A DNA stretch of 19,007 bases from Blastocatellia bacterium. GTDB lineage: Bacteria > Acidobacteriota > Blastocatellia > Pyrinomonadales > Pyrinomonadaceae. The number at the start of each line of letters is the position of its first letter. The stretch's first letter is position 1. The stretch is from the NCBI GenBank assembly GCA_003175865.1, contig PSRF01000130.1:1-19007 (forward strand), in the 5' to 3' direction. The notes under the pieces were generated by a model. It was not told the DNA's origin. It saw only the letters and a list, made by a program, of their open reading frames with translations, and made no database searches. Below are positions 2,794-5,219 of the stretch, one piece after another. Made by a program: the position numbers and the translations under genes.

Positions 2794-4701
2794 TCAATTA
2801 ATTGAGATTCCCTCTACTGAGCTCAGCTCGTTCGCAGCTCCAAAGTCATCGAGCGCCCCAAACACCTCCAACGCATACTTGACGTTTCCAAATGGTGCTG
2901 ACACTTGAACGCCTTGAATGACATCACGGACTTCCAGTAAAGATTCCCGGGCAATCTTCAACCCTTCTTCTCGACCTGCCTCTTTGCTGATGTTTGACGC
3001 ATCTCGCATGCGTTCCATGATCGAAGGTGTCACACGCACACCCGGAACTTCATTGTGCAGGAACTCGGCGTTGCGATAGGACACCAGTGGCCAAATACCG
3101 GCAACGACCGGGATCCGAACGTGCTCAATTCGTTTTAAAAAATCACGTAATTGGTCCGTGTCAAACACTGGTTGCGTGATGGCGTACTGCGCGCCTGCCT
3201 CCACCTTCCATTCGAAACGCTTGATCTCTTCGTCGAGATTGATTGCGCCGGGATTAACACCGACGCCAATACAGAACGCTGTAGGCTGACCGATTGGGTT
3301 ATTGCCGAGGTCCAGTCCATGGTTTAGTTTGTTCACCATGTTAGTCAGACCGATGGAGTCGATATCAAAAACCGCAGTAGCGTCAGGATAAGGTCCCATC
3401 TTTGGAGGATCACCGGTGATAACGAGAATGTTTCGCAAGCCGAGTGCAGCCGCTCCCAACAGATCCGACATCATGCCAAGCAGATTTCGATCACGACAGC
3501 AGTAATGCAAGACTGATTCAATTCCGATTTGCTGTTCGACCAGGACTGCTGTGGCCAGCGCACTCATGCGTGACTGCGCACGAGCTCCATCTGGAATGTT
3601 TACGCCGTCCACTCCGGCATCTTTCAGAAGTCGAATCGAGTCGAGCGTCTTCTGTGTTTCGACGCCGCGAGGCGGTAACACTTCAACGGAAGTTACAAAC
3701 TCGCCAAGCGCAATCTTGCGACCCCATTTTGATCGCTCTTCAGCTGGCACAACCTGAATGTCCGGTGCTTTGATTTCATCTACTTGAGCAGACGAACTTG
3801 ATGAGAAGGCTACGCGTTGCGCGCGAGGCGACGCCGCGCGAACAGCATCTGAAATCAACTTGATATGTGCGGGGGTCGTTCCGCAGCAACCACCAATGAA
3901 CTTCGCACCCGATTGAATGAACCGCTTTGCGAACTTCGACATGTACTCCGGTGAGCACATGTAGAACTGTCGCCCCTGGACATCCCGCGGCAATCCTGCA
4001 TTTGGTTGAGCGGAAAGCTTCTTCTTTGTGACTTCTCGCATCTTCTCGAGCGCGTTTAGAATTATGGCCGGGCCTACACCACAGTTCAGTCCAATTACGT
4101 CAGCGCCCCATTGGTCGAGTCGTTCCGTAAATAGTTCAGGCGTGGTTCCGAACAGGGTGTTACCGTCCGTCATAATCGTCATCTGTGCGATGATCGGAAG
4201 GTCGCACAGTTCGCGAACCGCGCGGATGGCCTGTCGAATCTCTGAAACGTCCGAAAACGTTTCGAGCACAAACAGATCCACACCACCTTCGAGCAGCCCG
4301 ACCGCCTGTGCCTTGAACAACTCTTTTGCTTCGTCAAATGAAGTCGGGCCGTAAGGCTCTATACGCAAGCCGAGCGGTCCAATTGCTCCAGCTACGTACG
4401 AACGATCGCCGGCCGCCTCGCGAGCAATCTTTGCGGCGATAGCGTTGATCTCGTGAAGGTTTGCTTCGAGTCCATATTGCTGAAGCTTGTGGGCCGTGGC
4501 ACCAAACGTGTTGGTCTCGATGATGTCAGCACCAGCGCGAATGTATTCAGTGTGGATTTCACGAACCAGATCTGGATTGCTGAGGTTGAGCTCGTCGTAG
4601 CAACGATTGATGTAGACGCCCTTAGCGTAGAGCATCGTGCCCATTGCGCCATCCACAACGTGAATGCCATCGGATTCGAGAAGATTCTTAAACGGTTCCA
4701 T
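2794..4701 (-). CDS. Bifunctional homocysteine S-methyltransferase / methylenetetrahydrofolate reductase
   Basis: A 635-residue fusion. Residues 1-290 are a zinc-dependent homocysteine methyltransferase of the MetH/BHMT barrel type: VDGAMGTML near the start, Cys207 in GLNCGVGP and the pair Cys272-Cys273 in GGCCGTTPAHI, the expected zinc ligands. Residues 322 to about 610 are an MTHFR (MetF) barrel: EFVTSVEVLPPRG, then VITGDPPK and the segment QYAITQPVFD. The reductase makes 5-methyl-THF; the methyltransferase domain makes methionine from homocysteine, its methyl donor not being settled by sequence. The start at 4701 (MEPFKNLLES) is chosen because the barrel begins there. An upstream Met at 4827 would add 42 residues translated from an AT-rich repeat. 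No good Shine-Dalgarno is visible at 4701. A SAM-II-like element and a terminator lie in its leader, fitting feedback control by SAM. Confidence 0.93.
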   Translation of the reverse strand: MEPFKNLLESDGIHVVDGAMGTMLYAKGVYINRCYDELNLSNPDLVREIHTEYIRAGADIIETNTFGATAHKLQQYGLEANLHEINAIAAKIAREAAGDRSYVAGAIGPLGLRIEPYGPTSFDEAKELFKAQAVGLLEGGVDLFVLETFSDVSEIRQAIRAVRELCDLPIIAQMTIMTDGNTLFGTTPELFTERLDQWGADVIGLNCGVGPAIILNALEKMREVTKKKLSAQPNAGLPRDVQGRQFYMCSPEYMSKFAKRFIQSGAKFIGGCCGTTPAHIKLISDAVRAASPRAQRVAFSSSSSAQVDEIKAPDIQVVPAEERSKWGRKIALGEFVTSVEVLPPRGVETQKTLDSIRLLKDAGVDGVNIPDGARAQSRMSALATAVLVEQQIGIESVLHYCCRDRNLLGMMSDLLGAAALGLRNILVITGDPPKMGPYPDATAVFDIDSIGLTNMVNKLNHGLDLGNNPIGQPTAFCIGVGVNPGAINLDEEIKRFEWKVEAGAQYAITQPVFDTDQLRDFLKRIEHVRIPVVAGIWPLVSYRNAEFLHNEVPGVRVTPSIMERMRDASNISKEAGREEGLKIARESLLEVRDVIQGVQVSAPFGNVKYALEVFGALDDFGAANELSSVEGISIN

Positions 4702-4719: not shown

Positions 4720-4832
4720 GATTTTAGATTTTTGATTGTGGGTGAACGAAAGCAGTTCGTTTATTGCTAGATGGTTATGCAGAACGATTGAACATAGTCG
4801 AACCGCCTCAGCGAAATCAAAAATCAAAAATC
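4720..4832. repeat. AT-rich palindromic element in the leader of the methyltransferase gene
   Basis: The arms at 4720-4737 (GATTTTAGATTTTTGATT) and 4815-4832 are complementary at 17 of 18 positions and enclose about 77 bases. The right arm contains tandem AATCAAA units. The element sits between the leader terminator and the start codon, and explains the unnatural upstream extension of the ORF. Confidence 0.6.
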
Positions 4833-4867
4833 AAAATGAAAATGTCCCGCGCTAAACAACGCGGGAC
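4833..4867 (-). terminator. Intrinsic terminator in the methyltransferase leader
   Basis: Read on the minus strand, GTCCCGCG (4867-4860) pairs perfectly with CGCGGGAC (4851-4844) around an 8-base loop and is followed by ATTTTCATTTTGATTTTTG, a T-rich stretch. It lies between the SAM-II-like element and the gene, the position expected for a transcription attenuator. Its loop and 3' arm (GTTTAGCG on the minus strand) are complementary to the 3' end of the candidate aptamer. Confidence 0.55.
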
Positions 4868-4912
4868 TTCAAATCGGTTGAAGTTTTTCGGGTCTTTCTC
4901 AAGTCGCCCGAG

Positions 4913-4963
4913 CTGTTTAGCGGGTTGTTTTACGTGGCCGCAAGTCGCCTTAACTCACCACGT
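4913..4963 (-). ncRNA. Candidate SAM-II riboswitch
   Basis: On the minus strand, ACGTGG and CCACGT form a perfect 6-base-pair P1 stem (4963-4958 with 4937-4932). The stem loop begins TGAGTTAA and ends with CTTGCGG. After P1 come AAAACAACC and CGCTAAACAG. From memory, SAM-II aptamers have the same order: GTGG, TGATTTR, CTTGC, GCCACGTTAAACAA, CGCTAAA. The pseudoknot pairing is only partly supported (TTG with CAA, or GCGG with CCGC), and TGATTT is TGAGTT here. It lies about 210 bases upstream of the homocysteine methyltransferase/MTHFR start and before a terminator, so the genetic context is right for SAM-dependent repression. A covariance-model search with Rfam RF00521 would decide. Confidence 0.6.
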
Positions 4964-5016
4964 TTGTCAATTTGCTTATACGCTTCTTGAAATCTGACTG
5001 TCAAGAACCACAAAGG

Positions 5017-5093
5017 TCCGATAAGCTCCTGCTTGTCGCATGACTCGGTGCTGAGAACTCTTGCAGGTTGACGACAAGCTGAAGCTTAAGGAA
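5017..5093. repeat. Palindromic repeat, family A (TCCGATAAGCT...CGACAAGC arms)
   Basis: Left arm 5017-5038 (TCCGATAAGCTCCTGCTTGT, then CG) and right arm 5072-5093 (CGACAAGCTGAAGCTTAAGG, then AA) are inverted copies with a few mismatches, separated by 33 bases. The 18-mer ACGACAAGCTGAAGCTTA at 5071-5088 recurs exactly at 10599-10616, so this is a dispersed element and not a local hairpin. It lies between the divergently transcribed methyltransferase and transglycosylase genes. Confidence 0.65.
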
Positions 5094-5219
5094 CAAAAAA
5101 GCGCGCATGCTTCAACATTAGCCATATTCTTCTAAATAATTAGTGTTCGCTTTTTTCCTTCACCCTGACCGTTCAACTGCAAATCGACTGAATTTGTGAC
5201 CTCTTTAAGTACAATTACT

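Follow-up and report, generated by a model that had tools for sequence, protein, structure and literature searches.

Comparative sequence analysis of a SAM-II riboswitch and its putative antiterminator in Pyrinomonadaceae (Acidobacteriota)

In a preliminary description of the Blastocatellia DNA analysed in this work (hereafter the window, meaning the whole stretch of 19,007 nt), a SAM-II-like aptamer was placed at 4913..4963, in front of a homocysteine methyltransferase/MTHFR gene and outside the usual phylum of this riboswitch class, and a TGAGTT in the place of TGATTT was taken to leave room for a variant class. The locus raises the questions of which kind of element this is, how it would act on the gene behind it, and what the changed letter means for the ligand pocket.

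The aptamer, its gene and its relatives

When the window was compared with all Rfam families, the sole match at or above the gathering score was RF00521 (SAM_alpha/SAM-II), at 4896..4971 on the minus strand, covering model positions 1-79 in full length with 48.2 bits against a gathering score of 36 (E = 2.6e-8, calculated for the whole window). A permissive Rfam scan of 4750-5100, with E up to 10, added two weak unrelated matches and gave none to SAM-V, the other class suggested for an Infernal check. All segments quoted in the preliminary description are present on the minus strand: the letters and the structure line of the RF00521 match define P1 as ACGTGG (4963-4958) with CCACGT (4937-4932), forming six perfect pairs; TGAGTTAA sits on the loop side of P1 (4957-4950), CTTGCGG at 4944-4938 and CGCTAAA at 4922-4916. 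The interval first reported corresponds to the core only: the aptamer match continues as far as 4896, and the tail of the terminator reaches about 4833. The pocket and the 3' strand of the pseudoknot (G42-A47) lie in CCCGCUAAACAGC (4912..4924, minus strand), which on the grounds of complementarity, folds and co-variation is also the proposed antiterminator strand. As letters alone, the P2b strands of the window (UUGC and GCUAAA) are compatible with the triples U11-A45-U21, U12-A46-U20 and G8-G42-C23, and the third strand that follows the perfect P1 reads GAGUU against the GAUUU of SAM-II, a single change, at U10.

The locus shares with SAM-II (RF00521) the P1 stem, the pseudoknot, the pocket residues, an upstream promoter, a downstream terminator and a methionine gene, features reported by Corbino et al. 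in many members of the class (PMC1273637). From its sequence, the element is confirmed as a SAM-II riboswitch, ordinary in kind; it is a variant within a known class and no new class, and the earlier wording applies only loosely, to a U10 change specific to this lineage. SAM-V riboswitches, whose pocket and triplex are described as near-identical (PMC6061858), act on translation, unlike the window element with its terminator-like hairpin; a SAM-V identity, for which a Shine-Dalgarno sequence would be expected in P2a, was dropped, given the lack of a match in the permissive scan and a gene start 195 nt past the aptamer match. Translational control is not favoured in the window either, because the aptamer match stops those 195 nt before the start codon.

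The next gene 3' of the aptamer (2794..4701, minus strand) encodes 635 aa without stops and corresponds to a bifunctional homocysteine S-methyltransferase/methylenetetrahydrofolate reductase (NF006396, 749.5 bits; Pfam PF02574 and PF02219), as had been proposed; the ATG at 4701 is taken as its start, with many orthologues matching from residue 1. Among the best 80 of 567 orthologues, the closest named ones belong to Acidobacteria/Pyrinomonadaceae metagenome genomes (top identity 91%), which agrees with the acidobacterial origin presumed before. The riboswitch is preceded by a divergent lytic transglycosylase gene. A candidate promoter (TTGACA-N18-TATAAG, 11 of 12 consensus letters) was located at 4975..5004 on the minus strand, with its -10 element ending 12 nt before P1. 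A promoter score of 10-11 was reached in 66 of 131 leaders of relatives and in 2 of 131 shuffled leaders (two of the 133 leaders were too short), and the candidate was absent from a stricter general promoter scan of the window. From the predicted -10 ending at 4975, the start site was estimated near 4968. Upstream of the candidate promoter, the window also carries a 17-nt inverted repeat (5022-5038 / 5072-5088, 88%). Elsewhere in the window, 884-1660 encodes a protein whose C-terminus bears a PEP-CTERM sorting motif.

The genome of the window and its relatives yielded 139 RF00521 matches, of which 133 were fetched (omitted, at 27-29 bits: G008:C395, G001:C172, G079:C23, G076:C353, G087:C161 and G065:C190). 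They were sorted by their third strand into type A (GUGAGUU, as in the window; 96/133, all in its family, genomes G000-G059), type B (GUGAUUU, 16/133) and type C (GGCGAUUU, 21/133, all below the gathering score, at 28-34 bits). The letters GA[U/G]UU, UUGC and CUAAA are kept in 133/133, the matches having been chosen by a model that rewards them. Clustering of ORF picks assigned the downstream genes to a homocysteine methyltransferase/metH group (99), threonine synthase (16), O-acetylhomoserine sulfhydrylase (6), and other or none (12); like the NF006396 gene of the window, the genes behind SAM-II are mostly methionine-related. The first group comprises 51 orthologues, at least 59% identical to the protein of the window, and 48 metH-like genes (at most 36%), one of which was checked by profile and matched TIGR02082; 38 genomes carry both kinds of locus.

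The terminator-like hairpin and the pocket strand

Downstream of the aptamer, a terminator-like hairpin of 10 pairs occupies 4844..4867 on the minus strand and is followed by ATTTTCATTTT. The general scan that found it returned one hairpin against 0.9 expected from shuffles of 801 nt, a result that alone is not beyond chance. Across loci, 127 of the 133 aptamers have a terminator-like hairpin behind them at a threshold of -8 kcal/mol (60/399 shuffled stretches), and 123 at a threshold of -14 kcal/mol (6/399). The stems vary from locus to locus (CCCCG/CGGGG, TCTCG/CGAGA, CTCTGC/GCAGAG, CCTTG/CAAGG). The motif (C/T)TGTTT(A/G)GC recurs in 64/127 hairpins (59/90 of type A, 4/16 of type B, 1/21 of type C), and TGTTT in 80/127. 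A GATTTTTGATTT-type inverted repeat (4720-4737 / 4815-4832) lies in the window past the terminator and ahead of the start codon; A/T-rich repeats were seen by eye after the terminators of some relatives too.

In the window, nine letters of the terminator loop and 3' arm, TGTTTAGCG (4850..4858, minus strand), are the exact complement of CGCUAAACA in the pocket strand (4914-4922), within a 16-nt imperfect inverted repeat (I4, arms 4850-4865 / 4907-4922, 88%). When 14-nt windows were slid along the leaders of 127 loci, the hairpin loop and 3' arm had their best average fit at the pocket strand GCUAAANAGC, and compensatory change was seen at N. Mean binding was -13.5 and -12.2 kcal/mol at two pocket-strand windows, the former starting three nt before G42 (n = 127), and -5.3 to -9.9 kcal/mol at all others; the best single window lay at the pocket strand in 87/127 loci and elsewhere in 40/127. 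For type C loci, mean binding was slightly better 18 nt downstream (-11.7 vs -11.3), in a window that can extend as far as the terminator. Against shuffled hairpins, pairing was significant (p <= 0.05) in 76/90 type A, 7/16 type B and 9/21 type C loci. As an alternative partner of the terminator, the loop that separates P1 from the pocket strand (inverted repeat I5) was considered and set aside, its pairing being weaker (windows -15 to -9 averaging -6.3 to -7.2).

Co-variation was followed at residue 48. Loop letters taken by regular expression proved pattern-biased and were replaced by a count of duplex partners, which gave C-G in 105 loci, G-C in 9, A-U in 2, T-G in 1, G-U in 1 and no partner in 9 (n = 127). 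This count picks the best register and so leans to pairs; with shuffled arms, residue 48 was Watson-Crick paired in 1618/2540. Swapping terminators between loci is the better test and answers this register bias in part: X=G aptamers given X=C terminators had C as partner in 86/1232 (own, 9/11), and X=C aptamers given X=G terminators had G in 421/1232 (own, 105/112). Own pairs were also stronger than swapped ones, at -12.1 vs -10.6 for X=G and -13.9 vs -8.6 for X=C, and better than permuted ones (0/2000 overall, 0/5000 within type C), permutations and swaps both ignoring the relatedness of the loci.

Folding of the window with a pseudoknot-free model placed the antiterminator fold 1.3 kcal/mol ahead of the terminator fold from nine start sites, 4972 to 4963, and the terminator fold ahead from 4975 (-46.5 vs -44.3). 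The balance flips between 4975 and 4972; it therefore depends on exactly where transcription starts. Once the core was blocked, the terminator formed in the window and in 127/127 loci. The antiterminator appeared in the unconstrained fold of 14/127 loci (13/90 of type A, 1/16 of type B, 0/21 of type C) and in 4/635 unconstrained folds with a shuffled core.

These observations are consistent with a simple switch, which we propose, in which the strand of the ligand pocket doubles as antiterminator. Without SAM, the polymerase would read through, the pocket strand being paired with the loop and 3' arm of the terminator; with SAM bound, this strand would be locked in the pseudoknot triplex, the terminator would fold, and transcription would end early. 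Because the antiterminator is found in only 14/127 unconstrained folds, the decision at the other loci would have to be kinetic, the terminator loop emerging before the 3' arm, and this would be the weakest step of the proposed mechanism. Complementarity, co-variation and folds support a putative pocket-strand antiterminator, and the terminator together with its co-variation with the aptamer supports SAM repression of the window gene. Overall, we consider it probable that the SAM-II riboswitch shuts the homocysteine methyltransferase/MTHFR gene by premature transcription termination at high SAM.

The terminator might instead lie outside the control of the aptamer, as a constitutive attenuator, with regulation taking place elsewhere, as for Sinorhizobium meliloti metA, whose terminator is not predicted to respond to SAM binding in the account given by PMC9373788. 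The 113/127 loci whose unconstrained fold misses the antiterminator would fit this reading. Set against it, the stems vary widely, yet their loop and 3' arm stay complementary to the pocket strand; residue 48 shows a compensatory change that swapped pairs do not show; and nine of ten start sites tested in the window favour the antiterminator fold. For these reasons we hold constitutive attenuation to be improbable. The preferred reading, termination under SAM control, resembles what PMC9373788 describes for the SAM-II riboswitch of S. meliloti metZ, where SAM binding is predicted to form a Rho-independent terminator, although the target gene is another one.

Four rhizobial SAM-II leaders, with hand-picked terminator halves, behaved in reverse to those of Pyrinomonadaceae: the second half of the terminator had its best fit, at -15.7 to -21.1 kcal/mol, with the 5' strand of P2a, pocket-strand windows were weaker (-3.1 to -5.8 and -5.3 to -11.1), and the window 18 nt downstream came close to the best in three of four (-13.5 to -17.9). 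In our own reading, P2a of the window looks short (GGC/GCU) compared with GGCCGG in these comparators, one of which reads GGCCGGTCGG. This contrast is only suggestive, because the four leaders are few and related, and their P2a strand is nearly self-complementary; if general, it would mean that, in the acidobacterial lineage, the antiterminator role shifted from P2a to the strand that contacts the ligand.

Residue 10 of the ligand pocket

The TGAGTT of the window corresponds to a change at SAM-II residue U10, the G lying at 4954 on the minus strand, where described SAM-II riboswitches have U (assigned by the RF00521 alignment, with the residue's role as given in PMC3764141 and PMC6061858). G10 is present in 96/133 fetched matches, all in the family of the window, where it marks 96/105 fetched matches of types A and B. 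According to PMC3764141, residues U10-U12, U20, U21, G22, C23, G42, C43, U44 and A45-A47 are completely conserved in SAM-II; U11-A45-U21, U12-A46-U20 and G8-G42-C23 form triples, and U44 bonds the SAM adenine. In SAM-V, U8 is reported to form one hydrogen bond with the uridine holding the SAM adenine (PMC6061858), and from the matching triples we infer that this U8 is the equivalent of U10 in SAM-II.

For 58 orthologous proteins (57 of 80 loci and the window), the tree requires the G/U label to change twice: U is carried by three Acidobacteriota rows of the outgroup, and a family clade of 50 rows comprises 44 with G, three with U (among them Pyrinomonas methylaliphatogenes) and three without a call. 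As the tree was built by a quick method with a midpoint root, and several inner forks are weak, we only infer the direction of change, reading it as one gain of G10 and one reversal. G10 would thereby constitute a natural change, held by a lineage, at a pocket residue thought invariant, with the apparent Pyrinomonas reversal as its matched control.

We read G10 as a tolerated change that would keep SAM binding, because a G is likewise able to act as hydrogen-bond donor to U44: G10 would supply the bond formerly given by U10. SAM-II riboswitches bind SAM and reject SAH; SAM is still the likely ligand of the G10 aptamer, since the other pocket letters checked are kept.

A broader reading would make the Pyrinomonadaceae elements a SAM-II subclass, in which G10 alters affinity or specificity and the ligand-contacting strand serves as antiterminator, so that occupancy and the transcription decision would be one event; we find this quite unlikely. 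That the U10 to G change altered ligand preference or affinity, giving a subclass for a SAM relative or for another SAM range, has only a small probability. The complete conservation of U10 in the SAM-II set of PMC3764141, on account of which G10 could weaken SAM binding, speaks for such an alteration, as do the bond of SAM-V U8 to the adenine-holding uridine (PMC6061858) and the prevalence of G10 in the family (96/105, with a single apparent reversal on the gene tree). Against this, every fetched match retains the letters U11, U12, U20, U21, G22, U44 and A45-A47, and G10 and U10 versions precede the same genes: the orthologue leaders comprise 46 of type A, 3 of type B and 2 of type C, and the metH-like ones 42 of type A and 6 of type B.

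Occurrence in Acidobacteriota

The genome of the window, 62% complete, has one RF00521 match. With its relatives included, matches at E <= 0.001 occur in 77/97 genomes and matches above the gathering score in 63/97; in an even sample of the phylum (own genome included), the corresponding figures are 16/119 and 11/119, and 14 control genomes gave no RF00521 match. The SAM-II switch is normal in Pyrinomonadaceae and scattered elsewhere in Acidobacteriota, where it is found by Rfam's model unaided. With matches in 77/97 genomes, the window element is therefore an ordinary member of its family in a group of hosts that has been little described. Conservation in the leaders of orthologous genes, looked for as a further check, was found as well: the aptamer consensus pattern occurs in 49 of 72 leaders (8 of 80 orthologue loci, with leaders shorter than 300 nt, being set aside), compared with a single occurrence in 964,550 strand-bases outside them. 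A chance resemblance or a decayed aptamer, in favour of which nothing was found, is refuted by the window's E of 2.6e-8, the 77/97 genomes and the 49/72 leaders, and retains a vanishing probability.

As a description, "outside its usual phylum" holds, but SAM-II had already been reported beyond Alphaproteobacteria, in other proteobacteria and Bacteroidetes, including Bacteroides (PMC1273637, PMC2258182). Among the papers listed by our search of the openly accessible literature, none treats SAM-II in Acidobacteriota, and the passages of four articles holding both terms (PMC2864571, PMC3101246, PMC7297122, PMC7749635) do not link SAM-II to Acidobacteria. The present comparisons place SAM-II control of methionine synthesis in this phylum on comparative ground.

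Several further arrangements were observed among the fetched matches. Type C elements (e.g., in L193, L195, L197, L209 and genomes of the same class) stand before threonine synthase in 12 cases and before O-acetylhomoserine sulfhydrylase in 6, and at 28-34 bits they are invisible to annotation at the gathering score. Tandem SAM-II pairs, a known arrangement with 44 examples mentioned in PMC9481103, occur at L191:1539-1751 (+), L198:1577-1774 (+) and L183:1444-1659 (-), with starts 126-141 nt apart and each copy followed by its own terminator-like hairpin; five of the six copies score below the Rfam gathering threshold, and the gene behind the pair is threonine synthase at L191 and L198, as assigned by clustering, and resembles a short-chain dehydrogenase at L183, as judged by eye. 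At L215:1409-1581 (-), a SAM-II match is followed by a hairpin-like stretch and by a second aptamer-like stretch, below significance in Rfam (E 0.01 not reached), whose end carries AAAAGGAGG just before the ATG of a gene with a GPSGTGKT motif; the first 160 aa of its product have no NCBIfam match at E <= 1e-20, and it is not an obvious methionine gene. L212 (-) shows a similar order, namely a SAM-II match, a hairpin-like stretch and a second GATTT...TTGC...GCTAAA, followed by what appears by eye to be an S-adenosylmethionine synthetase gene.
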